64,000 bases of DNA, from NCBI RefSeq assembly GCF_002902965.1, contig NZ_CP026107.1, forward strand, positions 434,001 through 498,000, read 5' to 3'. How positions within the stretch are numbered: the first letter of the stretch is position 1; each line of letters begins with the position of its first letter. Source of the DNA: Paraburkholderia hospita (GTDB taxonomy: Bacteria; Pseudomonadota; Gammaproteobacteria; Burkholderiales; Burkholderiaceae). Of this stretch, positions 37,162 through 64,000 are shown one piece after another. Position numbers and translations under genes: made by a program. The notes beneath the pieces are model-generated. The model had not been told where the DNA came from. It saw only the letters and a program-made list of their open reading frames with translations, and searched no databases.

Positions 37162-37164
37162 GAT

Positions 37165-38058
37165 TTACCCCTTGACCGAGCCGGCCATCAGACCGCGTAC
37201 GAAGTAGCGACCACCGATCACATAGACGAGCAGTGTCGGCAGCGCGGCGATCATGGCCGTGGCCATGTTGACGTTGTATTCCTTGACGCCCGTCGATGTA
37301 TTGACGATGTTGTTCAGCGCGACGGTGATGGGCGCGGAACTGCCTGTCGTGAATGAAGCGCCGAACAGGAAGTCGTTCCAGATGTTCGTGAATTGCCAGA
37401 TCACGGTGACGGTGATGATGGGCACCGAGTTGGGAAGCAGGATGCGGAAAAAGATGCGAAAGAAGCGTGCACCGTCGATCATCGCCGCTTTCACAAGTTC
37501 ATCGGGAAACGCGATGTAGTAGTTGCGGAAGTACAGCGTCGTGAAGCACAGGCCATAAACGACATGCACGAACACGAGGCCGCTGATCGATTGCGCGAGG
37601 CCGACCTTGCCGAGGAACGAAGCCATCGGAATCAGTACGATCTGGAACGGGATGAAGCATCCGAACAGGATCAGGCCAAACAGCGTGTTGTCGCCTTTGA
37701 AGCGCCATTTGGTCAGCACGTAGCCGTTCAATGCACCGAGTAACGTGGAGATCGCTACGGCAGAGAAGACCATCCGGAAGGAATTCCAGAAGAAGCCTTT
37801 TACACCGGAGCATTCCAGTCCCACGCATGCCGAGCCCCAGGCTTTTTCCCACGCTTCAAGCGTCCACTGATGCGGCAGCGCGAGGATATTGCCGGAATAC
37901 ACCTCGGGCAGCGGCTTGAACGACGTTAGCAGCATCACGAGCAGCGGTACGAGATAGACCACGGCCGCAATCGCCAGCATCGAATAAATCACGATCCGCG
38001 AGACGTAGTTATGCTTGCCCACCACCATCTGTGGTGAGTCCCATGTCTTGGTAGCCAT
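37165..38058 (-). CDS. sugar ABC transporter permease (MalG-like)
   Basis: 297 residues, six membrane helices, EAA loop DELVKAAMIDGARFFRIFFRILLPNSVP and a C-terminus GGRYFVRGLMAGSVKG characteristic of CUT1 permeases. Start preceded by AGGAGA. Three bases separate it from the ATPase gene. Works with the MalF-like partner from which it is separated by a strong stem-loop. Confidence 0.92.
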   Translation of the reverse strand: MATKTWDSPQMVVGKHNYVSRIVIYSMLAIAAVVYLVPLLVMLLTSFKPLPEVYSGNILALPHQWTLEAWEKAWGSACVGLECSGVKGFFWNSFRMVFSAVAISTLLGALNGYVLTKWRFKGDNTLFGLILFGCFIPFQIVLIPMASFLGKVGLAQSISGLVFVHVVYGLCFTTLYFRNYYIAFPDELVKAAMIDGARFFRIFFRILLPNSVPIITVTVIWQFTNIWNDFLFGASFTTGSSAPITVALNNIVNTSTGVKEYNVNMATAMIAALPTLLVYVIGGRYFVRGLMAGSVKG

Positions 38059-38072
38059 CGTTGTCTCCTGTT

Positions 38073-38107
38073 GGCCAGAGTTGGTTCTTTAGAGCCTTAC
38101 TCTGGCC
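38073..38107 (-). other. stem-loop between the two permease genes
   Basis: Perfect 9-bp arms GGCCAGAGT / ACTCTGGCC with a 17-base loop that can itself pair (GGCTCT..AGAACC on the minus strand). It sits in the 84-base gap between permease genes; without a U run it is more likely an mRNA-stability or partial-termination element than a full terminator. Confidence 0.55.
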
Positions 38108-38142
38108 CCATGCAAAAGGTTGCTAGGGGGTATCGGTTGAGT

Positions 38143-39117
38143 TCAATGGCCGCCGCTCTTCCGGCGAGGTCTCATTTCGGAGTAGAGGTAGGGCACCATG
38201 ATGGCCGCCACCGTACACAGCATCATCACGGCGCTGGCCGCACCCATGCCGAGTTCGTTGCGGGTGAAGGTGAACGAGTACATGAAGGTGGACGGCAGTT
38301 CTGTCGAGTAGCCGGGACCGGCGCCCGTCAATGCGATGACAAGCTCATAGCTCTTGACCGCAAGGTGCACGAGAATCACGAACGCGGATACGAAGACGGG
38401 CCGGAGCTGCGGAATGATGACTCGCCGATAGATCGAAGGCATGCGCGCACCGTCGATCGACGCGGCCTTGATCTGTTCCTGGTCGATGCCGCGCAGGCCG
38501 GCCAGAAACATCGCCATCACGAAGCCCGACGCCTGCCAGACAGCGGCGATGACGACGGTATAGATCGCCATGTCGTCGTTGATGATCCAGTCGAACTGGA
38601 AGCTCGTCCAACCCCAGTCATGGAACAGCTTGGTGAGGCCCAGTCCCGGATTGAGAATCCATTTCCATGCGGTGCCCGTGACGATGAACGAGAGCGCCAT
38701 GGGATAAAGAAAGAGCGCCCGCAATCCGCCTTCAGCGCGAATCCGTTGATCGAGCAGAATGGCGAGGCCGAGACCGATCGCCATGCACAGCACGACATAG
38801 AGCGATGCGTAGATGCCGAGGTTGACGATCGCCACATGCCAGCGCGGATGCTCCCAGACGCGGCCATACTGAAGCAGACCGGCCCAGTGGAAGTTCGCAA
38901 AGGCGCGTGAGCGGGTGAACGAGAGCACCGTCGTCCACGCGATAAAGCCATAGACGAAGATCAACGTGATGATCAATGTCGGGCTAAGGACGATCTTGGG
39001 CAGAACCGCTTCGAAGCGGTTTCGAAACGTCGATCGCTTTCGTGTCGGGCTTTGTCCCGAGCTGTTGTTCAGATCATCAAGCGTGGTCGCCGCATGGGCG
39101 CGATTGTGCAATAGCAT
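38143..39117 (-). CDS. sugar ABC transporter permease (MalF-like)
   Basis: 324 residues with a charged cytoplasmic N-terminus (TRKRSTFRNRFEA), six predicted membrane helices and EAA loop QEQIKAASIDGARMPSIYRRVIIPQLRP. First CUT1 permease of the importer. AGGTG lies six bases before the ATG. Preceded by the binding-protein gene and a stem-loop. Confidence 0.92.
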   Translation of the reverse strand: MLLHNRAHAATTLDDLNNSSGQSPTRKRSTFRNRFEAVLPKIVLSPTLIITLIFVYGFIAWTTVLSFTRSRAFANFHWAGLLQYGRVWEHPRWHVAIVNLGIYASLYVVLCMAIGLGLAILLDQRIRAEGGLRALFLYPMALSFIVTGTAWKWILNPGLGLTKLFHDWGWTSFQFDWIINDDMAIYTVVIAAVWQASGFVMAMFLAGLRGIDQEQIKAASIDGARMPSIYRRVIIPQLRPVFVSAFVILVHLAVKSYELVIALTGAGPGYSTELPSTFMYSFTFTRNELGMGAASAVMMLCTVAAIMVPYLYSEMRPRRKSGGH

Positions 39118-39149
39118 GGCAACACCTACCGTCGGAGATGACGGGCCTC

Positions 39150-39179
39150 GCGGACAGCGGCGTTGGGTGCCGCATCCGC
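39150..39179 (-). other. stem-loop between binding-protein and permease genes
   Basis: Imperfect GC-rich hairpin: GCGGA/TCCGC and GCGGC/GCCGC stems separated by a small internal bulge, 7-base loop. Position right after the binding-protein gene is where such hairpins commonly protect the upstream mRNA so that binding protein exceeds permease. Confidence 0.5.
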
Positions 39180-39195
39180 ACGAGGACCATTTGGC

Positions 39196-40452
39196 TTACT
39201 GCGAGTTCTTCACTGCCGCGACGAGCGCTTTCACGGCATCCGCAGACGACTGATTCGAATTGAAGAAGTGCGTGACGACGTCATACACGGCGTTCTTCGG
39301 ACCATCGGGCATCGCGTGTCCGTGCGCGAAGCTGCCGACCATCGAGTCCGTCTTGAGGGCGGCGCGCATGTCGTTCATCGACTTCTTGCCGCATTCGTCG
39401 AAGCCGTCCTGAGGCACATCGAGACGCGCAGGAATCGAGCCTTTGATCTGGTTGAATTTCGCCTGGACGCCCTTGTCCATGATGGTCGACGCAAACGCGT
39501 ACTCGCCGGGGAGACTCGCGTCGCCCTTCTTGAAGCCCGCGAACTGGTCGGTGTTGAAGATGAATGCGCCATCCGTTCCGGGATAGTTGAAGCAGAGGTA
39601 GTCGACATTCGGCTGCTTGCCTGCCGACGCAAACTCGCCCTTGGCCCAGTCGCCCATGATCTGCATGGCAGCCTTACCGTTGATGACCATCGATGTGGCG
39701 AGATTCCAGTCACGGCCCGGGAAGTTCGGGTCGACCATGCCGCGCAATGCGCGCATCTGGTCGAAGGCCTTTTCCATCGTCTTGGAGCCGAGCGCGCTGG
39801 GGTCCAGCTTGACCAGCGCCTGCTGATAGAACTTCGGGCCGCCCGCCGACATCACCGCGCTATCGAAGATCGTCGCTTCCTGCCATGCCTGGCCGCCGTG
39901 CGCCAGCGGAATGTAGCCGGCCTTGCGGATCTTGTCGGCGTCCGCGACGAGTTCTTCGAAAGTCTTCGGCGGCGTGAGCTTCAGTTGATCGAAGATCTTC
40001 TTGTTCGCCCAGATCCAGTTCGTGCGGTGCACATCGACAGGTGCGGCAACCCAGTGACCATCGACTTTCGAAAATTTCTGGATTGGACCGGGCACGAGCT
40101 TGTCCCAGCCTTCCTTCGACGCGACAGGATCGAGGTTCTGCAGATAATCCTCTTGCGCGTATTCAGGGATCGTGAAGCCGAGCATCTGGATCGCATCGGG
40201 CGGATTGCCGGACGCGACGCGCGCCTTCAGCACCGTGCGTGCGGCTTCACCGCCGCCGCCCGCGATCGGGCTGTCCTTCCATGCATAGCCCTTGGTTTTG
40301 AGGCCGTCTTTCAGTACGGAAAGGGCCTTGGCTTCGCCGCCGGAAGTCCACCAGTGCATGACTTCCACGGTTTTCGTATCGGCCGCGCCAGCGGACAGCG
40401 CGTGGCAGGCAACGAGGCCGACTGCAATTGCAGCAATGCGTTTCTTGTACAT
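39196..40452 (-). CDS. sugar ABC transporter solute-binding protein (family 1)
   Basis: 418 residues: signal peptide MYKKRIAAIAVGLVACHALSAGA, then KTVEVMHWWTSGGEAKALSVLKDGLKTKGY, typical of CUT1 glucose/mannose-type binding proteins, and later NGKAAMQIMGDWAKGEF and PGTDGAFIFNTDQFAGF. Captures a sugar or polyol in the periplasm for the MalFGK-like complex. ATG 40452 follows GGAG; the longer frame to 40743 has no support. Ends 78 bases before the MalF-like gene. Confidence 0.92.
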   Translation of the reverse strand: MYKKRIAAIAVGLVACHALSAGAADTKTVEVMHWWTSGGEAKALSVLKDGLKTKGYAWKDSPIAGGGGEAARTVLKARVASGNPPDAIQMLGFTIPEYAQEDYLQNLDPVASKEGWDKLVPGPIQKFSKVDGHWVAAPVDVHRTNWIWANKKIFDQLKLTPPKTFEELVADADKIRKAGYIPLAHGGQAWQEATIFDSAVMSAGGPKFYQQALVKLDPSALGSKTMEKAFDQMRALRGMVDPNFPGRDWNLATSMVINGKAAMQIMGDWAKGEFASAGKQPNVDYLCFNYPGTDGAFIFNTDQFAGFKKGDASLPGEYAFASTIMDKGVQAKFNQIKGSIPARLDVPQDGFDECGKKSMNDMRAALKTDSMVGSFAHGHAMPDGPKNAVYDVVTHFFNSNQSSADAVKALVAAVKNSQ

Positions 40453-40498
40453 CTTTGTCTCCTTGATGACGCTCTCTTGGCGGGCTTTCTTGTGGACA

Positions 40499-40518
40499 CC
40501 ACGGCGGGCATGCCGTGG
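40499..40518 (-). other. stem-loop between aldehyde dehydrogenase and binding-protein genes
   Basis: Perfect 7-bp arms CCACGGC / GCCGTGG with a 6-base loop, inside the 88-base gap of the operon. Could be an internal processing or partial termination point separating enzyme and transporter parts of the transcript. Confidence 0.45.
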
Positions 40519-40540
40519 CGCGATCTGGATGGATTCGTGA

Positions 40541-42082
40541 TCAGGCGGCTGGACGCGGCAGCCACCAGTTCTTGCGCTCTCCGATGTGAAGCTGAATCGT
40601 CTTTGTCTCGGTGTAGTCCTCGACGGCCTGCTTGCCGAGTTCGCGTCCCACGCCGCTCGACTTGAAGCCGCCGAACGGCAGTTCTGGGTAACCGTCGAGG
40701 AAGGTGTTGACCCAAACGGTGCCCGCATCGACGCCGCGCGCAACGGTCAGGCAAGTGTTGATGTCGTTGCTCCAGACGGCGGCGGAGAGTCCGTAGGCGG
40801 TGTCGTTCGCGATGTCGATCGCGTTCTGCGTGTCGGAGAAGGGGATGATCGTGAGCACGGGGCCGAAGATTTCTTCGCGGGCGATGCTCATGTCGGGCGT
40901 GACATCGCTGATGACGGTCGGCTCCAGATAGAGGCCGTTCGCGTCATAGCGTTTGCCGCCCAGGCGCAGGCGCGCGCCTGCCGCAACGCCCTTGTCGATG
41001 TTGCCGAGAATCTCGACCAACTGGTTCTCGCTGACGATCGCGCCGATCTTGCATTCAGGATGCAGAGGATCGCCAACAGGCACTTGCCGTGCGCGCTCGA
41101 CGACTGCTTGCGCAAAGCGCTCCGCAATCGATTCGTGCACGAGCACGCGGCTACCGCTGTTGCAGCATTCACCCGCGTTGAAGTACACGCCGAACACGAC
41201 GGCATCGACCATCGCATCCCAGTCGCAATCGGGGAAAACGATCTGCGGATTCTTGCCGCCGAGTTCGAGCGCGACCTTTTTCAGCTTCTTCGATGCGAGT
41301 CCGCCGAGCAGGCTGCCGACGCGCGTCGAACCGGTGAAGGACAGCATATCGATGGCATCGTGTTCCGCGAGCGGCTGCCCGACGGACGGACCTTTGCCCG
41401 TCACGACGTTGACGACGCCCGCCGGCACGCCGGCCTGTTCGAGAATCTCCATCAGCATGACGGTCGTGCTCGACGTCAGTTCGCTCGGCTTGACTACGCA
41501 GGTGCAACCCGCCGCGAGTGCGAACGGCAGCTTCTGCGAGAGGATCCACAGCGGAAAATTCCACGGCGTGATGAGTCCGACAACGCCGATCGGCTGGCGC
41601 AGCACGATGCCGAGCATGTCTTCGCCGAGGGTGTCGTAGGCATCGCCGCTGGTCGTGCGGGCAAGGCTTGCCGCGTATTGCCAGAGATCGATGCAGCCGG
41701 ACACTTCGCCGCGTGCCTGCGCAAGCGGCTTGCCTGTTTCGAGCGATTCGAGCAGCGACATCCTGTCGACGCGTGCCTTGATGCCGTCAGCGATCGCGAG
41801 AAGAATCCGTGCGCGTTCCGCGCCTTTGAGCTTCGACCATGGACCGTGACGGAAGGCGAGGTCGGCGGCGTTGATGGCTCGCTCGACGTCTGCCGGTGTC
41901 GCTTCCGGAAACGAACTGACAACGTGTCCATGCGCAGGGCTGCGGCGCTCGAAGCGCTGCTTGTCCGTGGATTCGGTCCATGCGCCGTCGATGTACATGC
42001 GGCCGTTGAAGGCTTCGTGCACGGGCGCCTTAGCGTTTGTCAAAAGCGCGGTTGCAGCGGGAATTGCGGTGTCGTACGTCAT
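40541..42082 (-). CDS. NAD(P)-dependent aldehyde dehydrogenase
   Basis: 513 residues. The general-base Glu in KVALELGGKNPQIV and the catalytic Cys in VYFNAGECCNSGSRV are present, as is the cofactor loop ITPWNFPLWILSQKLPFALAAGC and FTGSTRVG. Similar in layout to betaine-aldehyde-type dehydrogenases. Oxidises an aldehyde to a carboxylate; in this operon it would follow the GMC oxidoreductase and precede CoA activation (inference). Starts one base after the hydratase stop. Confidence 0.92.
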   Translation of the reverse strand: MTYDTAIPAATALLTNAKAPVHEAFNGRMYIDGAWTESTDKQRFERRSPAHGHVVSSFPEATPADVERAINAADLAFRHGPWSKLKGAERARILLAIADGIKARVDRMSLLESLETGKPLAQARGEVSGCIDLWQYAASLARTTSGDAYDTLGEDMLGIVLRQPIGVVGLITPWNFPLWILSQKLPFALAAGCTCVVKPSELTSSTTVMLMEILEQAGVPAGVVNVVTGKGPSVGQPLAEHDAIDMLSFTGSTRVGSLLGGLASKKLKKVALELGGKNPQIVFPDCDWDAMVDAVVFGVYFNAGECCNSGSRVLVHESIAERFAQAVVERARQVPVGDPLHPECKIGAIVSENQLVEILGNIDKGVAAGARLRLGGKRYDANGLYLEPTVISDVTPDMSIAREEIFGPVLTIIPFSDTQNAIDIANDTAYGLSAAVWSNDINTCLTVARGVDAGTVWVNTFLDGYPELPFGGFKSSGVGRELGKQAVEDYTETKTIQLHIGERKNWWLPRPAA

Positions 42083-54769: not shown

Positions 54770-55492
54770 TTATTGGCGGCAGATAGTCATGCTCGCCAAT
54801 AGTGATCCATATCCCTGCGGCCGTTCGGAAATCCGAAGCTTCGAAAGGCAATACCACAGCAAAGCGGCATTGCTCGTCACCACGGGTACATCGAGCATGC
54901 GCTCGATCTCTTCGATCACAGGACTCACCCGAATCCCCGCGCAACTGACAAGCAGCGCATCGAACCGTCCACGTAGCTGCCTCGCCAGTTCCACCCACGC
55001 CCCGGGCGCGATCATTCCTTGCTCGAAGGGCGTGTTACACGGGATGCTCAGGTGCTCGTTGATCTCGATGCCTCGCCCGGCGAAGAATTCGATCTCTTTC
55101 ATCACCACCTGCTCACGATAGGGCGTCAGCAGCCCGATCGTCCTGACGGAAAGCGCGTTGCATGCAGCGAGCACGGCCTCGATGGTGGTCACGGCAGCGA
55201 TACCAGTGGCAGCCTCGATCCGCGCGTTGATGCTGTCCGGACCGTTCACGACACCTGCCGCCGTGCAGTTGAGCGCAATCAGATCGACCTTGGCGTCGGC
55301 GAGTAGCGCGGCGTGGGCTTCGAGATCATCGACGATGGTTTTGTCGGATTCGATTGAGGTGTCCCGAAAGGGCAGGCGCGTGGTGAGAAACTGCACACCT
55401 GGCGGCGCCATCAACTGGATCTCGAAATCGCACAGGCCGCCTGACGGGTAAAGGTGGCCGATCCGGGCCAATTCTCCGAAGCCGATGCTCAT
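54770..55492 (-). CDS. Asp/Glu racemase-superfamily enzyme (maleate isomerase-like)
   Basis: 240 residues. The two Cys regions of the superfamily are seen: LIALNCTAAGVVNGP (about residue 75) and DALLVSCAGIRVSPVIEEIE (about residue 195), with SIGFGELARIGHLYPSG at the start. This pattern suits maleate cis-trans isomerase or arylmalonate decarboxylase relatives. Just upstream on the same strand is the AAHS transporter, separated by 79 bases, suggesting joint work on an aromatic-acid breakdown product (inference). Confidence 0.8.
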   Translation of the reverse strand: MSIGFGELARIGHLYPSGGLCDFEIQLMAPPGVQFLTTRLPFRDTSIESDKTIVDDLEAHAALLADAKVDLIALNCTAAGVVNGPDSINARIEAATGIAAVTTIEAVLAACNALSVRTIGLLTPYREQVVMKEIEFFAGRGIEINEHLSIPCNTPFEQGMIAPGAWVELARQLRGRFDALLVSCAGIRVSPVIEEIERMLDVPVVTSNAALLWYCLSKLRISERPQGYGSLLASMTICRQ

Positions 55493-55571: not shown

Positions 55572-56921
55572 TCAACTTTCGAGGGGAACGCCCGCAGTTT
55601 CGACGAACGCATCGCTCGACCGTGAGTTGCGTGTCAGCGCAATGGCCGTTGCTGCGACGAGCGCCGAGGCTGCGAACGCGTAGAAATTCCACTTTACGTC
55701 GACGTTCAGCGTTGCGAGGTAGGCGCCCACCATCGGACCGGCCATCGCGCCGAAACGTCCGATGCCGACGGCCCAGCCTGTCGCGCTCGCGCGCGCGTGG
55801 GCACGATAGTAGTTCGCGATGAAGCCCAGCTGAACCATCGCGACGCCAATGCTACCGAAGCCGGCGAGTGCGACCAGCAAATAGTTCATCACGAGGCTGC
55901 CTTTCATAGTCAGCCCTGCAACCGCGAGCGCGCCAATCAGATAGCCGCCGACGATGGTCTTGCGCGCGCCGAGCCGGTCGCTGATACGGCCGATCAGAAT
56001 CCCGCCAAGCGCTGACGACAGCATGAACACGGCGAGGAATGAGAGGCTCGAGCCGAGGTCGTAGCCAAGTTTGCGCATCAGTTGAGGCAACCACGTTCCG
56101 AGCCCGTAGATGACGAGGACGGCCGCCACCTGCGCGACCCACAGGCAGATCGTGGTCCAGAAGTTCTGCTGTGAAAACACTTCGCTGAACACGGCGCCGA
56201 GCGACGGTTTGGACGCCGCAGTGTCCGTATGGCGGCGAGGGGCAGACAACTTTATGCCGAGACGGCTTGCCAATCGTTGTGCGCGAGCGTCGTCGCCGCG
56301 GGCCAGCAGAAAGTCGAGCGACTCAGGTAGCAGCTTGATGAGAAACGGCACGGCGAGCAGCGGGCTCGCGCCGAGTGCGACGACGAACCGCCAACCATGT
56401 GATGACAGGAACGCAATGCCAATGACGGCTGAAAGCAAGGCGCCGATCGAGTAACCGGAGTACATCAATGCAAAGTTGAGGTTGCGTTTTTCAGTCGGCG
56501 AATATTCGACGGTCAATGCCGCCGCTGCCGAAATCACCCCGCCCAGTCCAAGACCCCCGATGAAGCGGCTCACCGAGAAAAAGGACGGCGAAGGCGCCCA
56601 CGCCGCGCCCAGCATCGAGAGCGAGAACAGTACGACGCAACTGATCAGAAGCAGCTTCCGTCCGACGAGATCACTGATCACGCTGATGATGTACGAACCG
56701 AACAGTGTGCCGAACAGCGCGGCACTGCCCATCGCGCCGATCTGCATCGGCGTTAGCTTCCAGGCGGGATCGGCGAGCAACGAGGGAACAATCGTTCCCA
56801 TGACGCCGATGTCGTACCCTTCAGCCACGATCGTGAGAAAGCAGAGCACGAGTACCAGGTAAGTCGTTCTGGCTGGAGGATCGAAGAAACGCTGTTGCGA
56901 ACCGTCGGAGAGCGCGGCCAT
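55572..56921 (-). CDS. MFS aromatic acid:H+ symporter (AAHS family)
   Basis: 449 residues, twelve helices. The AAHS wording VAEGYDIGVMGTIVPSLLA with the acidic residue in helix 1 and SDLVGRKLLLISC (motif A) are present. Relatives import benzoate, 4-hydroxybenzoate, gentisate or similar acids. ATG 56921 has GAGG eight bases upstream. An operator-like sequence identical to the one in the Rieske promoter lies about 200 bases upstream. Confidence 0.9.
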   Translation of the reverse strand: MAALSDGSQQRFFDPPARTTYLVLVLCFLTIVAEGYDIGVMGTIVPSLLADPAWKLTPMQIGAMGSAALFGTLFGSYIISVISDLVGRKLLLISCVVLFSLSMLGAAWAPSPSFFSVSRFIGGLGLGGVISAAAALTVEYSPTEKRNLNFALMYSGYSIGALLSAVIGIAFLSSHGWRFVVALGASPLLAVPFLIKLLPESLDFLLARGDDARAQRLASRLGIKLSAPRRHTDTAASKPSLGAVFSEVFSQQNFWTTICLWVAQVAAVLVIYGLGTWLPQLMRKLGYDLGSSLSFLAVFMLSSALGGILIGRISDRLGARKTIVGGYLIGALAVAGLTMKGSLVMNYLLVALAGFGSIGVAMVQLGFIANYYRAHARASATGWAVGIGRFGAMAGPMVGAYLATLNVDVKWNFYAFAASALVAATAIALTRNSRSSDAFVETAGVPLES

Positions 56922-57116
56922 GCGAGACACCTCTGCTGATTAGTATGTCAAACAGTAATCGAGCCACCAACTGCCTGCTGCAACAAGGAACACGATGCCG
57001 CCACGCCGGCGTGCGGCAACCGCATCATCGATGCAACGGTCGAGCGTGGGCGAAGCGGCTCACGCATCCGACAGTCGGATTCTCGGGCACGGCGTGGCTA
57101 GCGTCACGGCCTAAAT

Positions 57117-57148
57117 ACAGAATGACATTCTTTTTTCTGCGCTGTCAA
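57117..57148 (-). promoter_or_regulatory. shared operator and possible promoter upstream of the AAHS transporter
   Basis: ACAGAATGACATTC (57117-57130) contains the near-palindrome GAATG-A-CATTC. Twelve bases away on the minus strand is a consensus -35 TTGACA (57148-57143). The same 14 bases occur at 57931-57944. The clear -10 is not obvious, since the operator occupies its place. Confidence 0.65.
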
Positions 57149-57207: not shown

Positions 57208-57798
57208 TCAGCGTGTATCGGCAGATCGTTCGCCTAGCAGCAGGTCGGCCATCATCGTCGAGACCTTGTCGATATCACGGTCGTCGCCGATGCGGTGATT
57301 GATCACGAAGCCATCGAACGCCATCCAGATCAGGTGCGCAAGCAGGTCGCCGTGTACGACGTCGGCACGCTCCGGCGGAAGGGACTCGAGCAGCAACTGG
57401 GTCAGGAATGCTTCGACCGGTTCGAGCAGATTGACCGGCTTTCGCATCTCCGCGGGTGCCGTCGCCAGCGCATCGATCAGCGAATTGGCGAACGAATGAT
57501 CGGCGGCGGGGATGTCCGCCCAGATACCCGTAATGATGCGACGAATCTTTTTTCGGGGGTTCGACAGCAGCGCCACTTCGGCGCGCAGCGCCTGCAACTG
57601 CTGCGTCAGCCACGGCTGATAGATCTCATAGAGGATGATCAGTTTGGAATCGAAGTACACATAGAGATTCGCGACGGTGGTCCCCGCCTGCCGCGCGATC
57701 TCGGTCATCGTCGTCGCCGAATAGCCTTTGCTGCTGAACGCAGAGAAGGCAGACGCCAGGATCGCCTCCCGGATTTCTGCTTTTTTTACCTGCGGCAC
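57208..57798 (-). CDS. TetR-family regulator of the Rieske operon
   Basis: About 196 residues. DNA-binding domain KKAEIREAILASAFSAFSSKGYSATTMTEIARQAGTTVANLYVYFDSK followed by a helical effector domain ending DKVSTMMADLLLGERSADTR. A GTG at 57798 is preceded by GAGGAGG at four bases; the ATG at 57840 is an alternative. Divergent from the Rieske gene, and flanked on both sides by the 14-bp operator, so it likely represses both the oxygenase operon and the AAHS transporter. Confidence 0.87.
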   Translation of the reverse strand: MPQVKKAEIREAILASAFSAFSSKGYSATTMTEIARQAGTTVANLYVYFDSKLIILYEIYQPWLTQQLQALRAEVALLSNPRKKIRRIITGIWADIPAADHSFANSLIDALATAPAEMRKPVNLLEPVEAFLTQLLLESLPPERADVVHGDLLAHLIWMAFDGFVINHRIGDDRDIDKVSTMMADLLLGERSADTR

Positions 57799-57908
57799 CG
57801 CGCCTCCTCGGGTAAGTGAAACAACCAATTGACCCGCCATTCTAGCAATCGCCGCGCGCGCGACGCGTCGCCACGGCACGCCGGTTCAAAAAGTTTTCAC
57901 GGAAGGGC

Positions 57909-57944
57909 TTGACAGCCGTTTCTACTGAAAACAGAATGACATTC
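57909..57944 (+). promoter_or_regulatory. Rieske operon promoter overlapped by the shared operator
   Basis: -35 TTGACA (57909-57914), 17-base spacer, -10 CAGAAT (57932-57937). The operator ACAGAATGACATTC (57931-57944) covers the -10 completely, the classical layout for repression. Start codon of the oxygenase follows at 57988. Confidence 0.75.
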
Positions 57945-57987
57945 ATTATTCAGCCATTCGGCTTTCACCCCACGAAGGACGCAATAC

Positions 57988-59277
57988 ATGAATGCGATTC
58001 CCGCCCCGGACGGCACGTTGACCGCGCGTTACGCAGAACTTGGCGCTGGACTGATCCCCGTCGAACCCTATATTTCGCCCGAGTACTACGAGCGCGAGAA
58101 GGCGCACATCTTCAAGAAGACGTGGTTGCATGTGGGCCGCGTCGAGGAGATACCCGAGGCGGGTGACTATTTCGTCAGAAGGCTGGATGCCTGCGACACC
58201 GAGATCATCGTCGTGCGCAACAAGCGCGGCGAAATCCGCGCGATGCACAACGTCTGTTCGCACCGCCTGAATCAGATTGCGTATGACAGAACGGGGCATA
58301 CGCGCAAATTCTTCTGCAAGTTTCATGGCTGGGCCTATGACCTCGACGGCAACCTGACAGGCGTGCCTGACGAAAAGTGCTTTTTCGGTCTGGATTTCAA
58401 AGACTATGCGCTTACGCGCGTCGCATGCGACGTCTGGCAGGGATTCATCTTCGTCAATATGGAGCCTGAACCGAAGATGTCGCTTGCCGACTTTCTGAGG
58501 CCGATGTACGGCGACGTCGAAGGGTATCCGTTCGACAAGATGACGGTCGGCTTCGCGTGGGAAACCGTCGTCGATTGCAACTGGAAGCTCGCGCTCGATG
58601 CGTTTCAGGAGGCGTATCACGTCGCGTACGTTCACGGCAATTCGATTGCCGATGCGATCGACAAGTCGGCAGGCGGCAGCATGCCGCCGCTCGACGCGTT
58701 GTGCGGCGAGTTCCATCGACGCCTCTCGCTCGCGGGCAATCAGAAATCGGTTTACGGCAACCCGAAGGCCGTGACGTCAGGCGGCGCCGCTGCAGCGGAA
58801 GCCTTGTCGGACGCAGGATCGAAGCGCCCGGTTGCGGCGGCCGCGCTGCGCGCCGGTATCGGCAGCGCGCGCCATGAATTTCCACTCGACGCACTGCCGA
58901 AGGGCGTCAACTGGACGAAGAGCGCGAACTGGCTGTTCGACATCAACGTGGTGTTTCCGGACTTCTATCTGTCGCTGCGCCCCAACTACTGCCAGGCGTA
59001 CAACTTCCGCCCGATCGCACACAACAAGACGCTTTTCGAAGCGCGGGTGTACTACCCGGAAATGACGACGCCCGGCGGCCGCTTCTTCCTCGAATACATG
59101 AAGGTGGCGTTGCGCGATGTGCTGCTCGAAGACCTCAGCACGCTCGAACGCACGCAGCGCGCTGCCGAAACAGGCGTGAAGAAGTTCATGGTGCTGCAAG
59201 ACAACGAACTGCTGGTGCGTCACAGCTATCACGTCATCGAACGTTTGCTGGCGCAAGCCGAAGCGACTGCGGAGTGA
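57988..59277 (+). CDS. Rieske aromatic-ring-hydroxylating oxygenase, alpha subunit
   Basis: 429 residues. The [2Fe-2S] Rieske ligands are C90, H92, C110 and H113 (NVCSHRLNQ and FFCKFHGWAYD). The mononuclear iron site includes H211 and H216 (DAFQEAYHVAYVH). Such enzymes insert oxygen into aromatic or other unsaturated or methylated substrates using electrons from a reductase. No beta-subunit gene follows, pointing to an alpha-only (homotrimeric) type. First gene of a tightly packed operon with flavin and iron-sulfur reductases and cupins. Confidence 0.9.
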   Translation: MNAIPAPDGTLTARYAELGAGLIPVEPYISPEYYEREKAHIFKKTWLHVGRVEEIPEAGDYFVRRLDACDTEIIVVRNKRGEIRAMHNVCSHRLNQIAYDRTGHTRKFFCKFHGWAYDLDGNLTGVPDEKCFFGLDFKDYALTRVACDVWQGFIFVNMEPEPKMSLADFLRPMYGDVEGYPFDKMTVGFAWETVVDCNWKLALDAFQEAYHVAYVHGNSIADAIDKSAGGSMPPLDALCGEFHRRLSLAGNQKSVYGNPKAVTSGGAAAAEALSDAGSKRPVAAAALRAGIGSARHEFPLDALPKGVNWTKSANWLFDINVVFPDFYLSLRPNYCQAYNFRPIAHNKTLFEARVYYPEMTTPGGRFFLEYMKVALRDVLLEDLSTLERTQRAAETGVKKFMVLQDNELLVRHSYHVIERLLAQAEATAE

Positions 59278-59282
59278 GGATC

Positions 59283-59690
59283 ATGGAAGAGAAAGTCATT
59301 GTTATCGCGAGGCGCGCCGATGCCACCGCAACGGATGCGCCCACGCGCGCGGCGCTGCCCGCCGCGTTTGCCGAACTGAACCGGTTTGTCGACACGTGGG
59401 CGCTCGAAACCGAAACGGCGCGCACGACGCGGCGCCATACGGCCGGCATGCCCGCGATCGTCGAGTTCAAGGACGCCATGCTTGCGAGGGTCGACGAGAT
59501 CGTCGCGTGGCTCAATCAGTACACGCTCGACACGCTGCCCGGCGATGCGAAGACGCTGATGTATCTGTTGCTTTCGCTAGCCGAGGTCGCGCCTGCCGTC
59601 GAGTTCTATCAGCAAGCGGCTGTGATCGACGGCTATGACCCGTTTCGCTTCGTGGCCGACGAAACCTTTTCGATGCGCCCGGTCGTCTGA
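59283..59690 (+). CDS. unrecognised 135-residue protein of the Rieske operon
   Basis: Starts MEEKVIVIARRADATATDAPTRAALPAAFAELNRFVDTWALETE and is mainly helical (PAIVEFKDAMLARVDEIVAWLNQYTLDTLPGDAKTLMYLLLSLAEVAPAVEFYQQA). No cysteine cluster, so it is not a ferredoxin. No signal peptide. I do not recognise the family. GAGG lies three bases before the ATG; a GTG at 59274 overlapping the oxygenase stop is an alternative start. Its place right after the oxygenase suggests an accessory or assembly role. Confidence 0.75.
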   Translation: MEEKVIVIARRADATATDAPTRAALPAAFAELNRFVDTWALETETARTTRRHTAGMPAIVEFKDAMLARVDEIVAWLNQYTLDTLPGDAKTLMYLLLSLAEVAPAVEFYQQAAVIDGYDPFRFVADETFSMRPVV

Positions 59691-59725
59691 CGCTCGACAG
59701 GCAAACCCAGTTCAAGGATTCGACC

Positions 59726-60142
59726 ATGCCTAAATGCCGCATTTTTGGAATCGATCACGGACTCAAGGAGGTCGTCGCCGACGGCCTCTATATGAAGACG
59801 ATGATCGGCGAGACGATGAGTGTCGCTGTCATCAAGTTTGTCGAAGCGGCGGGTCGCAGCCTGCCGGCAAAGGCGCATAGCCACGGCGAAGAGGCATCGT
59901 TGCAGGTGAGCGGCGGCTGTTCGATCTTCGAGGTGCACGCCGATGGCGAAGCGTTCGAGCGGCGCCTGAATAGGGGCGAGGGCATGATCATTCCCGCCGG
60001 TTTGAGTCACTACGGCGTCAACACGTATGAAGGCGCGGGCATGAGCATGCGTCTGAACGTGGTGACGCCACCGCGTGCCGAATATCGCAGTGAAGACGAG
60101 CCGCCGTATTACCCGCTCGCCGATCGGGAGCGTGCATCGTGA
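59726..60142 (+). CDS. cupin-domain protein 1
   Basis: 138 residues. Cupin motif 1 HSHGEEASLQVSGGCSIFEVHADGE and motif 2 GMIIPAGLSHYGVNTYEGAG, with His/Glu ligands kept. No signal peptide, so cytoplasmic. Could be a metal-dependent enzyme (isomerase or dioxygenase) or a small-molecule sensor. Its last bases overlap the next cupin gene (GTGA). Confidence 0.82.
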   Translation: MPKCRIFGIDHGLKEVVADGLYMKTMIGETMSVAVIKFVEAAGRSLPAKAHSHGEEASLQVSGGCSIFEVHADGEAFERRLNRGEGMIIPAGLSHYGVNTYEGAGMSMRLNVVTPPRAEYRSEDEPPYYPLADRERAS

Positions 60143-60513
60143 GCGCCGCGATCCCGACGAATTCCCGCATTGCACATTGCACGCTATTGCCCGCCGTTCA
60201 GGCGGACAGCGCATCGTCTTCGACGACAGGCCAGCGAAATGTAGCCGACGGCGTGGCACTGTCAGCGTCGACTCAACTCATGACCTGCGATGAGTCAGTC
60301 GGGTTCGAAGCGAACCTGCTTGGCGAAGAACTCGCAGCCGTGCTCGAAGGGCGGGTCGACATCGTCGCGGCGGATGAGCACTACGTTCTCTCGGCAGGCG
60401 AAGCGATCCTGATTCCGCCGCGCGAGGCACGCAGCTATCGGTGCGTCACGCCTCATTGCGTGCTGTATCGCGTGACGTGCAGTCCCGCACAAAGCGAGGA
60501 GGACCACGCATGA
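60139..60513 (+). CDS. cupin-domain protein 2
   Basis: 124 residues. Cupin pattern LGEELAAVLEGRVDIVAADEHYVLSAGEAILIPPREARSYRCVT without the usual His of motif 1, so metal binding is doubtful. GTG start overlaps the stop of cupin 1 (GTGA); its own end overlaps the reductase start (ATGA). Tandem cupins in one operon suggest two parts of one enzyme or a non-catalytic partner. Confidence 0.78.
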   Translation: MSAAIPTNSRIAHCTLLPAVQADSASSSTTGQRNVADGVALSASTQLMTCDESVGFEANLLGEELAAVLEGRVDIVAADEHYVLSAGEAILIPPREARSYRCVTPHCVLYRVTCSPAQSEEDHA

Positions 60514-61769
60514 GTTCCCCACATGTCGCGATCGTCGGCGCGGGTCATGCGGGCGGCCGCGTCGCCCAGCATCTCAAGGCCTTCGGCCATACCGGGCCAG
60601 TGACGCTGATCGGCGACGAGCCGCATGCACCGTATGAGCGTCCCGCGCTGTCGAAAGAACTGCTGCTCGGCACGAAGACGCAAGAGAGCATCGCGTTGTC
60701 GCCGGCTGCGTACTGGACCACAGAGTCGTTGCTGCAAGCCGGCATCGCACGCATTCACGCGAGCGCGCAGTCGCTCGATGTCGATGCTCGACGGCTGCAA
60801 CTCGACAACGGCGTCACGGTGGACTTCGACCTGATGGTGGTCGCCACAGGCGGCATCGCGAGGCGTCCGCGCTTCGTCAGGCAGCCTATTGAAGGCGTCC
60901 ACGCACTGCGGACGCTCGACGATTGTCTGACGTTGCGCTCGTCGCTGCAAGGCTGCCGCAAGCTCGCGATCATCGGCGCAGGCGTGATTGGTATGGAGGT
61001 GGCGTCGTCGGCAATTGCTCTCGGCGTGCCGGTGACGGTGCTGGAGGCGGGTGACGGCATCATGGCGCGCTGCCTGCCTTCGCAGGTGGCCGGATGGCTT
61101 GCACATGAGCATGTCGCGAAGGGTGTCGACTTGCGAACACGCGTCAACGTTACAGACATCGCACGTGCCGGTGCTATCGACGGCGATACGTTCGCGCTGC
61201 GCATCGACGCAACGCAAGATGGCGTGCCGTTGAGCATCGGAGCCGACTGCGTGCTGATTGCGATCGGCGTCGATTGCAATCCCGCGTTCCTGCATGGATC
61301 TGGGCTCTCGGACGAGCACGGCGTGCTGGTGGACGCGTTTTGCCGCAGCCCCTCTGCGCCGTGGCTCTATGCGGCAGGTGACGCGGCGTGCACGTTGGAC
61401 ACGGGTTCCAGCCGTCACATCAGGCAGGAAACGTGGCGCAACGCTGAGAATCAGGCGCGTGCAGTGGCCGGGATCATCACGGGGAGAACGGAGCCCTATT
61501 CGGAGATCCAATGGATGTGGACCGATCAGCTCGGCCACACGATCCAGGTCACGGGCGTCCATGAACCCGGCGATGAAACGGTTGTGCGCGGGTCGCTTGC
61601 ATCGGCGGATGCGACGGTCATTTCGCTGCGCAACGGCTGCGTCGCCGCGGGCGTGACGATCAACCAGAGCCGTGAACGGCGGCATCTGGAACGTCTCGTA
61701 AGCGGGCGCAGGCGTGTCGATGCAGGCAGGCTGGGCGACACGTCGGTCCCATTGAAGGAGCTCGTTTGA
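60510..61769 (+). CDS. FAD-dependent ferredoxin/rubredoxin reductase-type oxidoreductase
   Basis: 419 residues. FAD motif HVAIVGAGHAGGRVAQHLK, NAD(P) motif KLAIIGAGVIGMEVASSAIALG, and the PWLYAAGDAA segment near the end, as in aromatic-dioxygenase reductases (BphA4/TodA-type). Passes electrons from NAD(P)H. It probably feeds the Rieske oxygenase, but no separate ferredoxin gene is visible, so the carrier is unknown or lies elsewhere. Overlaps cupin 2 by four bases. Confidence 0.9.
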   Translation: MSSPHVAIVGAGHAGGRVAQHLKAFGHTGPVTLIGDEPHAPYERPALSKELLLGTKTQESIALSPAAYWTTESLLQAGIARIHASAQSLDVDARRLQLDNGVTVDFDLMVVATGGIARRPRFVRQPIEGVHALRTLDDCLTLRSSLQGCRKLAIIGAGVIGMEVASSAIALGVPVTVLEAGDGIMARCLPSQVAGWLAHEHVAKGVDLRTRVNVTDIARAGAIDGDTFALRIDATQDGVPLSIGADCVLIAIGVDCNPAFLHGSGLSDEHGVLVDAFCRSPSAPWLYAAGDAACTLDTGSSRHIRQETWRNAENQARAVAGIITGRTEPYSEIQWMWTDQLGHTIQVTGVHEPGDETVVRGSLASADATVISLRNGCVAAGVTINQSRERRHLERLVSGRRRVDAGRLGDTSVPLKELV

Positions 61770-62353
61770 TGTCGGACCCTCATTCGACGCTTCATTCGCT
61801 TGAAACGCGTGTCGCACGACTCGAAGCGATCGACGCGATCCGCTCGCTGAAGGCGCGCTATGCCGCGCTCGCGGATGCGAAATACACGCGCGACTATCAG
61901 CGCCAGTCAGAGCACGTGATGCGTGAAATCGCCTTGCGCCAGGCAGAGTGCTTTACGGAACGCGCCGTTTGGCGCGGCGGCGCGGGGTTCGGCAGCGATC
62001 TGGTCGGGCGCGAGCGGCTTTACGACTGGTTTCAGCGCTCGCCGTGGCGCTTTGCAATGCACTACTACGTCAGCGAAACACTCGATGTGACAGATGCACT
62101 TCATGCCACGGGCAGTTGGCGGCTTTGGCAACTCGCGTTGCGTGACGACGACGCGCATGCCGTACTGCTCGGCGCCGTCACCGAGGAGCAGTACGAGCGC
62201 ACGCCCTCCGGCGAGTGGCTGATCAGTGACATGCGTTTCACACAGCTTCACATGATGGAGCCTGACGACCGGATGCTGCCGTTGGCGAGCGATTTCGCTT
62301 CGTTGACTGCGCTGCGCAAATCCGGATCGAGCGAAATCACCCAAACCGTTTGA
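61769..62353 (+). CDS. SnoaL/NTF2-like protein
   Basis: 194 residues. LEAIDAIRSLKARYAALADAKYTRDYQ, then ECFTERAVWRGGAGFGSDLVGRERLYDWF and MHYYVSETLDV give the SnoaL_4/ring-hydroxylating-beta-like pattern. This fold serves small hydratases, isomerases and oxygenase beta subunits; a beta-subunit role is possible since none else is present. AAGGAG precedes the ATG by eight bases, and the start overlaps the reductase stop (TGATG). Confidence 0.82.
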   Translation: MSDPHSTLHSLETRVARLEAIDAIRSLKARYAALADAKYTRDYQRQSEHVMREIALRQAECFTERAVWRGGAGFGSDLVGRERLYDWFQRSPWRFAMHYYVSETLDVTDALHATGSWRLWQLALRDDDAHAVLLGAVTEEQYERTPSGEWLISDMRFTQLHMMEPDDRMLPLASDFASLTALRKSGSSEITQTV

Positions 62354-63309
62354 TGGATGGAATGCTGATGAACACACTTTCGACAGACCCGAATGCGCCG
62401 CGAGACAGTGCGATAACCGACCCGTCGCGTGCGCGCGTGATCGCGTTGTGTCCGGACCGCGCGAACGCGGATACGGGCCAGACATGCCGGACTGCGCCGA
62501 CGATTGCGGAGAACCAGTGCGAAGTGCGCTCGAACGCATGGGTCAATGCGGAGTACAAGCATCTCGTGCTGACGGCGCCCGGGCTTGCGCTGACGGCGTG
62601 CGCTGGACAGTTCTTTCATCTCGCGTGTCCCGCGTCTAACGACGACTCACCGTACCTTCGCCGGCCGATGAGCATCTACTGCGTGAATGCAGAAGACGGC
62701 CGCATCGAATTTCTCTACAAGGTGCAAGGCGCGGGAACACGCGGCCTCGCGCAGCTTCAGCCAGGCGATACGCTCGATGCATTGGGGCCGCTCGGGAAAG
62801 GGTTCGAGCTTCCCGCATCGTCGGAGCCCGCGCACGTGCTGCTGCTTGGCCGTGGCGTCGGCCTCGCGACGATGGCGCCGCTCGCTCAGCAGGCGATCTC
62901 AGCGGGTGCCCGCGTGACGGCAATTCTCAGTGCGCGCAGCCAGGCGTTGATGATGTCGGCAGACTTTCTGCAAGCGACAGGCGCGGATGTCATCACAGTC
63001 ACCGATGACGAGCAGACCAGCGACGTCGTTCAGGTCGAAAGCATCATCCGGCGGGTCTACGAGCGCAGGCGCATCACCTACGCCGCCACATGCGGTTCGA
63101 ACCGGCTGCTCGTCATGCTGCAACGCGTGGCTTCGCAATTGAACATCCCCGGGCAGGTCGCGCTAGAGCAGCGCATGGGTTGCGGCTACGGCGCCTGCTA
63201 CGCATGCGTGCGGCCATTTCGCAAAGAGCCGGGTTCCGAAGAGCTCAGCTACCGCCGCGTGTGCTGGGAAGGCCCCGTCTTCGATCTTCAGGAAACGACA
63301 TCATGGTAG
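62353..63309 (+). CDS. PyrK-like iron-sulfur flavoprotein (DHOD electron-transfer subunit type)
   Basis: 318 residues. FAD-binding RRPMSIYCV near residue 105, nucleotide fold HVLLLGRGVGLATMAPLAQ and a C-terminal [2Fe-2S] cluster site with C277, C282, C285 and C304 (MGCGYGACYACVRPF and RRVC). This is the PyrK architecture that links NAD(H) to dihydroorotate dehydrogenase 1B. Here it sits in a catabolic Rieske operon and carries an extra N-terminal stretch of about 50 residues. Start at ATG 62353 by coupling (TGATG); ATG 62368 is possible. Confidence 0.88.
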   Translation: MDGMLMNTLSTDPNAPRDSAITDPSRARVIALCPDRANADTGQTCRTAPTIAENQCEVRSNAWVNAEYKHLVLTAPGLALTACAGQFFHLACPASNDDSPYLRRPMSIYCVNAEDGRIEFLYKVQGAGTRGLAQLQPGDTLDALGPLGKGFELPASSEPAHVLLLGRGVGLATMAPLAQQAISAGARVTAILSARSQALMMSADFLQATGADVITVTDDEQTSDVVQVESIIRRVYERRRITYAATCGSNRLLVMLQRVASQLNIPGQVALEQRMGCGYGACYACVRPFRKEPGSEELSYRRVCWEGPVFDLQETTSW

Positions 63310-64000
63310 ACCTCAGCGTCAATATCGGCTCGCTTGCGCTGGCCAATCCCGTCATGCCGGCGTCGGGCACGTTCGCCGAAGGCACGTCGCAGATATTCGA
63401 CCTCAACTGCCTGGGTGCGATCGTTACGAAGACGATCACCCATGACGTGCGCGAAGGCGTTCCGCCGCCGCGCGTTGCGGAGTTTCGCGACGCGACACTC
63501 TTTTCGATCGGCATTCCCAGCAAGGGCAGCGACTACTATATCGAACAGACGGTGCCGTACTACCGGAGGTACAGTCCGCCACTTGTCGCCAGCATCTCGG
63601 CGAACACGATCGAAGAGTTCGGCAGGCTCGCCGCAAAAATCAGTGTGCCGGGCGTCGCTGCGATCGAGGCGAATGTGTCGTGCCCGAACCTGAAGAAGAA
63701 CGGTCAGGCGTTCGGCATGGACCCCGACGCCACCTGGCAGGTCGTCAAGGCGATGAAGTCGGCGACCTCGTTGCCTGTCTGGCCGAAGATGACGCCGAAT
63801 GCGGGCAACGTCGTCGAAGTCGCGCTTGCTGCCGAAGACGCGGGTGCGGATGCCCTGGTCGTCAGCAACGCGATCCTCGCGATGGCCATCGATGTCGAGA
63901 CTTTCCGCCCTCGCGTGGCGAATGTCATGGGTGGGCTGACGGGCGCGGCCACGCGGCCGATCATGCTACGGATCGCTTACCAGTGCGTGCAGACCGTGAA
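63303..64000 (+). CDS. PyrD-like dihydroorotate dehydrogenase family protein, 5' part
   Basis: Open from ATG 63303 to the window edge, 232 residues visible. Starts MVDLSVNIGSLALANPVMPASGTF, then the family's IEANVSCPNLKKNGQAF, where the class 1 active-site Cys lies, and LPVWPKMTPNAGNVVEVALAAEDAGADALVVSN with the FMN-contact Lys. Fits type 1B DHODs and dihydropyrimidine-dehydrogenase-like enzymes. Overlaps the PyrK-like gene by seven bases. In this context it more likely reduces or oxidises a ring intermediate than makes orotate (inference). Confidence 0.88.
   Translation, partial: MVDLSVNIGSLALANPVMPASGTFAEGTSQIFDLNCLGAIVTKTITHDVREGVPPPRVAEFRDATLFSIGIPSKGSDYYIEQTVPYYRRYSPPLVASISANTIEEFGRLAAKISVPGVAAIEANVSCPNLKKNGQAFGMDPDATWQVVKAMKSATSLPVWPKMTPNAGNVVEVALAAEDAGADALVVSNAILAMAIDVETFRPRVANVMGGLTGAATRPIMLRIAYQCVQTV

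Follow-up and report, generated by a model that had tools for sequence, protein, structure and literature searches.

A conserved Rieske oxygenase operon with a PyrK/PyrD-type pair in Paraburkholderia hospita: a candidate catabolic unit for nitrogen-bearing aromatic compounds

Ring-hydroxylating oxygenases (RHOs) such as the anthranilate (AndA), phenylpropionate (Hca) and phthalate 3,4-dioxygenases combine an alpha subunit, which carries Rieske and iron motifs, with a ferredoxin and an FAD reductase. Class 1B dihydroorotate dehydrogenases (DHODs) join an FMN-containing PyrD, with its catalytic cysteine, to a PyrK subunit with FAD and [2Fe-2S] domains. Components resembling both systems are encoded side by side at positions 57208-64000 of a 64,000-nt stretch (hereafter the window; bases 434001-498000 of contig 3) of the 11.5 Mb genome of Paraburkholderia hospita. 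The operon encodes an RHO alpha subunit, the small protein u138, two cupins, an FAD reductase, a SnoaL-like protein and a PyrK-like and PyrD-like pair (PyrKD). Its downstream end, checked past the window, lies 3' of pyrD, where genes for a Rieske ferredoxin, an asparaginase-like protein (likely start 64606) and an EthD-like protein (EthD1) follow in the same direction and complete the operon. Gene identities come from Pfam and NCBIfam profile searches, the NCBIfam scores being compared with curated cut-offs.

We tentatively favour the view that the locus is an inducible catabolic unit converting an N-aryl amide or benzo-fused lactam into catechol and an amide, with PyrKD acting as an NADH-linked ene-reductase or dehydrogenase. 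The broader reading, that the operon is catabolic and its PyrKD not a DHOD, is well supported. In the open-access PMC literature (subscription papers not covered), searches on the gene set itself and on auxin, indole and skatole routes yielded no description of it; the initial annotation of the stretch had suggested a possibly undescribed pathway.

Conservation of the cluster, its operator and its active sites

Searching a GTDB-species contig collection with the RHO alpha subunit returned 31 loci, 30 of which carry the cluster; together with two annotated plasmids these form the 32 loci used for synteny. The remaining hit, L038, holds only an RHO of 30% identity without the cluster and was dropped from the counts. 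With gene profiles built partly from those same loci, RHO alpha, u138, both cupins, the FAD reductase and the SnoaL-like protein were each found in 32/32 loci, and the ferredoxin and asparaginase-like genes in 31, the sole miss (L010) being cut by the end of its contig. PyrK and PyrD lie between the SnoaL-like and ferredoxin genes in 25 of the 31 uncut loci; in L018 and L022 they are found nearby in another operon together with EthD1, and in L023 elsewhere on the same contig. The loci span Beta- and Alphaproteobacteria, with hosts including Paraburkholderia, Caballeronia, Cupriavidus, Pandoraea, Herbaspirillum, Novosphingobium, Sphingobium, Azospirillum and Rhodobacterales (one from the Mariana Trench), and gene order is kept across orders and classes, a conservation far beyond chance. 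The reductase gene is placed upstream on the opposite strand in Rhodobacterales and Pinisolibacter, and upstream on the same strand in Azospirillum. Given that the order is conserved in these relatives, the possibility raised in the initial annotation that no relative shares the gene order can be set aside.

The cluster is also rare. RHO alpha was present, at E values up to 1e-50, in 6 of 100 genomes of the same family (P. hospita included; one match partial, 43%). Cupin 1 was present in 4/369 genomes of the class and 1/398 of the phylum (P. hospita counted in both), and the u138 profile matched 2/300 genomes of the order, P. hospita included, with at most 14 candidates scored per genome. The other three cupin 1 matches in the class are weak (37-39% identity) and lie in stretches without a comparable operon (L086-L088). 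These cupin 1 relatives come from genomes of one gammaproteobacterial family and have longer, signal-peptide-like N-terminal stretches; in L087, RHO and u138 genes are located near the cupin 1 relative on the other strand. The RHO alpha proteins of Paraburkholderia ginsengiterrae and P. haematera are 95-96% identical to that of the window over the best segment.

A common operator connects the operon to its neighbours. TTGACA is found in all ten aligned upstream regions (window included), and the palindrome GAATGNCATTC, at the expected position of a -10 box, is exact in nine of the ten; in L009 it has one mismatch. The palindrome occurred zero times in 100 shuffles. An extended operator taken from this upstream copy, searched with at most one mismatch, has two sites in the whole genome, at 57927-57944 before the RHO operon and at 57120-57137 before the importer gene, and the reversed control gave zero. 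Since the same operator precedes both, the importer, the EutA-like gene and the oxygenase operon look like one regulon. Across the 32 loci, the exact palindrome stands just 5' of RHO in 12 and between the TetR and major facilitator superfamily (MFS) importer genes in 11, with at least one site in 16; its absence from the other 16 weakens the case. The TetR gene itself is present in 25 loci, the importer in 21 and the EutA-like gene in 17.

The PyrD-like protein is not the sole DHOD of the cell. PF01180 has three matches in the P. hospita genome, namely a quinone-type class-2 PyrD and PreA, each over its cut-off and encoded elsewhere, and the PyrD of the window; the initial annotation had allowed that the pair might be the only DHOD. 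The gene beside preA was called PreT-like by reading, and an NCBIfam search at E 1e-100 gave no match for it. Of 22 relatives or records, 21 have a PF01180 match (the lone exception being the L046 plasmid), and all 19 relatives with a cluster-type PyrD carry at least one further DHO_dh match over the cut-off. Within the window family, the catalytic Cys, the Asn that follows it and both Lys residues are kept in 28/28 rows. In the same 28 rows, Phe replaces the Asn of the LNAIG motif of Lactococcus lactis PyrDB and Ala replaces the Thr of its NT motif, so that no row retains either residue. We take these two positions (Asn of LNxIG, Thr of NT) to be orotate contacts. The PyrK-like protein reaches 150.6 of the 314 bits required by NCBIfam.

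Both residues are retained by L. lactis PyrDB, by the PreA of P. hospita and by paralogues in Cupriavidus necator (L072) and Pandoraea (L071), to which the window PyrD is 52% identical, compared with 41% to L. lactis PyrDB. The nearest catabolic cousin that we met thus keeps the orotate residues that the window family has lost. Next to these paralogous PyrK/PyrD genes (L072:4578-11506; L071:7777-12541) are genes for an MFS transporter and for a hydrolase of the hydantoinase/carbamoylase type, and the L072 neighbours also include an aspartate ammonia-lyase (aspartase) and a dihydroorotase; the L071 neighbours were read by eye. By its gene content, the L072 set looks like one for orotate breakdown, and we found no description of an operon of this type in the open-access literature.

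The asparaginase-like protein shows a comparable pattern. Thr12, Tyr25, Ser58, Thr89 and Lys162 are kept in all 31 rows; Thr12, Tyr25, Thr89 and Lys162 are the catalytic positions of type II asparaginase. None of the 31 rows retains Asp90, Gln59 or Glu283: Asp90 is Ala throughout, Gln59 is replaced by Thr in 18 rows and by Val in 13, and Glu283 by Phe in 25, Tyr in 5 and Trp in 1; the Glu283 column adjoins an alignment gap. In type II asparaginases, these three residues contact the alpha-amino group of the substrate asparagine, and Ser58 contacts its carboxylate. The natural reading of these changes is that the substrate would be an amide that bears a carboxylate but has no alpha-amino group, a hydrophobic or aryl group perhaps occupying that place. 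The aromatic residue at the former amino site raises the possibility of an aryl-bearing amide that would be hydrolysed before the RHO step.

Catechol linkage, proposed pathway and alternatives

The RHO alpha subunit conserves the Rieske motif CSH..CKFH and the mononuclear iron motif ExxHxxxxH in a 33-row alignment, and its best matches among solved structures are the phthalate 3,4- and phenylpropionate dioxygenases. Together with its own ferredoxin and its own FAD reductase it makes up a three-component system. None of the scanned operon proteins matched PF00866, the family of the canonical beta subunit, which not every RHO possesses, and a SnoaL_4 protein is present. The best profile match of the latter is the bile-acid dehydratase BaiE (1.5e-7), and its Tyr, Asp and His are invariant, which suggests that it may be a dehydratase-like enzyme instead of a mere small subunit. 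The u138 protein is predicted to fold into a small helical bundle, for which no convincing structural match was found. A u138-family gene was located beside RHO in each of six distant plasmid RHO relatives (L076-L081; 33-38% identical, E 1.9e-27 to 1.2e-18), the six examined of 11 listed (H3-H13). Given that several of these loci carry other pathway genes, u138 appears to be a partner of the RHO clade and not of this pathway alone.

Genes for catechol degradation are found near several clusters. The Azospirillum cluster adjoins intradiol dioxygenase, cycloisomerase, muconolactone isomerase, enol-lactonase, thiolase and CoA-transferase genes, and an intradiol dioxygenase gene lies 3' of the operon in three Cupriavidus loci; the intradiol dioxygenase of L022 matches catechol 1,2-dioxygenase with 366.4 bits, under the cut-off of 392. 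Near the cluster of Novosphingobium lindaniclasticum are a muconate cycloisomerase and pcaF, both over the cut-off, and a pcaD-like gene (251 versus 255.85). In a census that covered P. hospita and 23 of the 32 loci, muconate cycloisomerase was present in 20/23 genomes or records (P. hospita included), with zero matches in the L018, L029 and L030 genomes. It lies at most 25 kb from the cluster in six (G104, G120, W01, G110, G111, G113), compared with 0.28 expected by random placement (P about 5e-7). This estimate is optimistic, since catabolic genes generally tend to cluster and the two Rhodobacterales are related to each other. In the L008 genome, one cycloisomerase is on the cluster contig about 45 kb away. 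This linkage points to catechol and, together with the common TetR operator, backs the earlier proposal of a catabolic operon under TetR control beside an aromatic-acid importer.

A related arrangement is found in Acinetobacter (L077), where RHO, u138 and NTF2 genes stand beside genes for an acetamidase/formamidase, an indole/styrene-type monooxygenase, a short-chain dehydrogenase/reductase (SDR), a ferredoxin, a cycloisomerase and catC. In a study of A. piscicola p38, gene1684, gene1687 and gene1690 are in the table of skatole-induced genes, and gene1684 is also in the indole table (PMC11434297). Judging from gene names and spacing, these may belong to the same cluster as that of L077.

In the pathway that we favour, TetR would repress the promoter of the importer (with the EutA-like gene) and that of the oxygenase operon through the operators seen in the sequence, and a substrate-derived ligand would relieve this repression. 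RHO alpha would receive electrons from NADH by way of the FAD reductase and then the Rieske ferredoxin, with u138 and the SnoaL-like protein as probable partners given their strict co-occurrence. RHO would then dioxygenate a nitrogen-bearing benzene ring at the carbon that bears the nitrogen, the substrate most likely being an aryl amide or benzo-fused lactam. Upon rearomatisation, the nitrogen would leave as a free carboxamide and the ring as catechol, which would enter ortho-cleavage. The asparaginase-fold enzyme, to judge from its active site, could hydrolyse a non-alpha-amino, carboxylate-bearing amide, either the one released by RHO or an aryl-bearing one before RHO acts. PyrK-PyrD would be a flavoenzyme that was recruited from among the orotate/dihydroorotate enzymes and is coupled to NADH. 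It may reduce or desaturate a C=C bond beside a carbonyl and so feed the RHO step or clear a by-product; its substrate would be a related ring compound that resembles orotate but is bulkier or less polar. Because some clusters are without PyrKD, we place it in an accessory branch. A more specific version of this scheme is possible but doubtful: PyrKD, with its Asn-to-Phe and Thr-to-Ala changes, would ene-reduce with NADH, or desaturate, a benzo-fused or aryl-substituted N-heterocycle, RHO with u138 as a new small partner would then cut the aryl C-N bond to yield catechol, and the asparaginase with its hydrophobic site would deamidate the rest.

Several observations weigh against the amide or lactam pathway. 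In P. hospita there is no catechol gene near the operon; the genome encodes three catechol 1,2-dioxygenases that exceed the cut-off and three cycloisomerases, all of them on other contigs. In Variovorax (L076), RHO and u138 genes occur with a 2,5-dihydroxypyridine dioxygenase and an isochorismatase-family gene, as for a pyridine route; a gene annotated 'ester cyclase' beside this RHO did not match the SnoaL profile. PyrKD is missing from the L019 and L024 genomes, each of which has one class-2-like DHO_dh match, and from the L046 plasmid. An apparent PyrD profile hit in L046 was rejected as false, as the record has no annotated PyrD and PF01180 matches nothing on that plasmid. With PyrKD and EthD1 missing from some clusters, the reductive step is not universal. 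As a strict claim, the combination of oxygenation with a DHOD-like step envisaged in the initial annotation is thus not supported, PyrKD being dispensable.

That the substrate is instead a single-ring N-heteroaromatic of the pyridine or pyrimidine type appears unlikely, even though several features of the locus would suit it. RHO would hydroxylate such a ring and cupin 1 or a partner would open it, after which the asparaginase-like enzyme would deamidate a maleamate-like acid and the EutA-like protein isomerise maleate to fumarate; before all this, PyrKD would reduce the ring in the way that PreTA reduces uracil. The EutA-like protein indeed matches the structure of a putative maleate isomerase (1.3e-11), its best match being arylmalonate decarboxylase (4.2e-12), and two Cys residues (NCTAA, SCAG) are conserved in 16/16 rows; its NCBIfam scores are under the cut-offs for both ectoine EutA (121.9 versus 318) and arylmalonate decarboxylase (78.5 versus 225). 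The loss of the amino site with retention of the carboxylate residue in the asparaginase-like protein, the Variovorax cluster, and the molybdenum hydroxylase genes near the cluster in L029, L031, L032, L034, L045 and the L025 genome are also consistent with this route. However, the frequency of catechol genes beside the cluster exceeds what random placement predicts, the EutA-like gene was not seen in 15/32 loci (some of them short), the operon has no ring-opening enzyme known for such a route, and the aromatic residue at the Glu283 position fits a larger substrate.

It is improbable that PyrKD replaces a cis-dihydrodiol dehydrogenase, or only supplies electrons, in an otherwise conventional RHO pathway whose substrate is an aromatic acid without nitrogen. 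In favour of this view, no SDR-type dihydrodiol dehydrogenase was recognised among the operon genes, the importer is of the aromatic-acid type and the solved structures closest to RHO are the phthalate 3,4- and phenylpropionate dioxygenases. Against it, the operon carries its own ferredoxin and reductase, and loci without PyrKD retain the remaining genes. This explanation would also leave the conserved amidase without a role, and DHODs dehydrogenate C-C bonds rather than oxidise alcohols.

A further auxin route, in which catechol would be formed by oxidation of indole-3-acetate, either as such or after its release from amino-acid conjugates by the neighbouring M20 amidohydrolases, comes next and has only a slim chance of being correct. 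M20 genes recur nearby in P. hospita, L017, L020, L033 and L070, some relatives have molybdenum hydroxylases, and several host genera of the cluster are known from plants; on the other hand, the M20 genes are outside the 32-locus core and some relatives are marine. The iac pathway likewise ends in catechol (PMC9613470), and the iad genes, which include a CoA ligase and a thiolase, differ in content from this operon (PMC12633357). By comparison of gene content with these descriptions, and with no search using Iac or Iad protein sequences, we found no iacA/iacE- or iadF/iadG/iadH-type genes with RHO (PMC9613470, PMC12633357); nor did we recognise among the operon genes an iac-like flavin monooxygenase or SDR. 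Finally, that PyrKD is a housekeeping DHOD and a mere hitchhiker can be dismissed as very improbable: PyrD does exceed the NCBIfam dihydroorotate dehydrogenase cut-off (325.3 versus 269), but the genome has a separate class-2 PyrD, the pocket is changed in every row and the placement in a TetR-linked operon is conserved.

If the amide or lactam pathway is correct, it would add a route for nitrogen-containing aromatics in which oxygenation is combined with DHOD-type redox chemistry and with hydrolysis of an amide, and which occurs in bacteria of soil, plant-associated and marine origin. Two folds of essential metabolism (DHOD 1B and asparaginase) would then be seen adapted to catabolism, with clear changes in their residues, and the uncharacterised u138 family would gain a role. 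The annotations 'dihydroorotate dehydrogenase' and 'asparaginase' in such operons are probably wrong names. The TetR/operator pair offers a ready biosensor for finding the substrate.

Gene layout and neighbourhood

The genes named in the initial annotation (TetR, Rieske alpha, the unknown protein, two cupins, reductase, SnoaL-like, PyrK-like and PyrD-like) all lie where it had placed them (Table 1). The operon genes overlap or nearly touch, as it had noted; its description of the oxygenase operon as fused to the PyrK/PyrD module does not hold, as these are separate adjoining genes.

Table 1. Features of the oxygenase locus and its upstream neighbours (window positions).
Feature	Position	Strand	Evidence or remark
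EutA/AMDase/maleate-isomerase-like protein	54770..55492	-	PF17645 2.5e-23; NCBIfam ectoine_eutA 3e-35, under cut-off
MFS transporter, aromatic acid/H+ symport type (importer)	55572..56930	-	TIGR00895 6.7e-84, under curated cut-off
Second TetR-type operator TACAGAATGACATTC	57116..57130	.	Between TetR and importer genes
TetR-family repressor, divergent from oxygenase operon	57208..57879	-	PF00440 2.4e-12
Promoter-like TTGACA (57909-57914) and palindromic operator AACAGAATGACATTC (57930-57944)	57909..57944	+	Operator would overlap -10 box
RHO alpha subunit	57988..59277	+	PF00355 and PF00848
u138, small helical protein	59274..59690	+	No Pfam or NCBIfam match
Cupin 1 (cupin-like), metal-site motif HxHGEE ... 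H	59726..60142	+	No Pfam match; motif kept in relatives
Cupin 2, without the metal-site histidines of cupin 1	60139..60513	+	PF07883
FAD ferredoxin reductase of RHO system	60510 (likely start)..61769	+	PF07992, PF14759; HcaD 5.6e-93, under cut-off
SnoaL_4/NTF2-like protein (RHO small subunit or dehydratase-like)	61766..62353	+	PF13577 4.4e-12
PyrK-like FAD/[2Fe-2S] electron-transfer subunit	62353 (chosen start; ORF from 62350)..63309	+	PF10418 9e-14, PF00970
PyrD-like FMN subunit	63303..64000, continuing to window-equivalent 64241	+	PF01180 1.3e-62

On the same contig, 3' of EthD1, follow a LysR gene, two M20 amidohydrolase genes, a second EthD-like gene, a porin-like gene and a third M20 gene (L004:17224-20183; L005:182-3670). 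An M20 protein of P. hospita matches the amidohydrolase model TIGR01891 over the cut-off. Parts of this LysR/M20/EthD/porin module recur beside the cluster in several relatives, in L070 at most 10 kb from PyrK-PyrD-EthD1. Among genes named by eye, an EthD-like gene in L055 stands beside acyl-CoA-dehydrogenase-like and LysR genes, and one in L058 beside flavin-reductase-like and LysR genes. Farther upstream in the window (36055-40743), the list of open reading frames holds an ABC sugar-type importer (ATPase, two permeases and binding protein) beside dehydrogenase and CoA-transferase-like genes.

Comparison with known systems

The oxygenase shares its alpha-subunit motifs, ferredoxin and FAD reductase with the AndA, Hca and phthalate 3,4-dioxygenase systems but differs from them in having u138 and a SnoaL_4 protein and no PF00866 match, and its alpha subunit falls far short of the curated thresholds for those named RHO families that it matches. 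The Acinetobacter plasmid cluster is similar in RHO alpha, u138, NTF2 and ferredoxin, in the presence of an amidase and in cycloisomerase/catC; in contrast to the window, it has an indole-type flavin monooxygenase, an SDR and an acetamidase/formamidase, and no annotated cupin, PyrKD or asparaginase-like gene.

With type II L-asparaginase, the asparaginase-like enzyme has the fold and Thr12, Tyr25, Ser58, Thr89 and Lys162 in common, whereas Asp90, Gln59 and Glu283 are lost and its score is under the NCBIfam cut-off (220.6 versus 314.3). Similarly, PyrKD has the FMN-containing PyrD with catalytic Cys and the PyrK domains of class 1B DHODs, yet two pocket residues are replaced (28/28), the operon is of a catabolic type and the pair is not the only DHOD of its cell. 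The orotate-breakdown-like PyrK/PyrD of Cupriavidus necator and Pandoraea is a close paralogue that also has a catabolic setting, and differs in retaining both pocket residues, Asn and Thr, which are lost from the window family.

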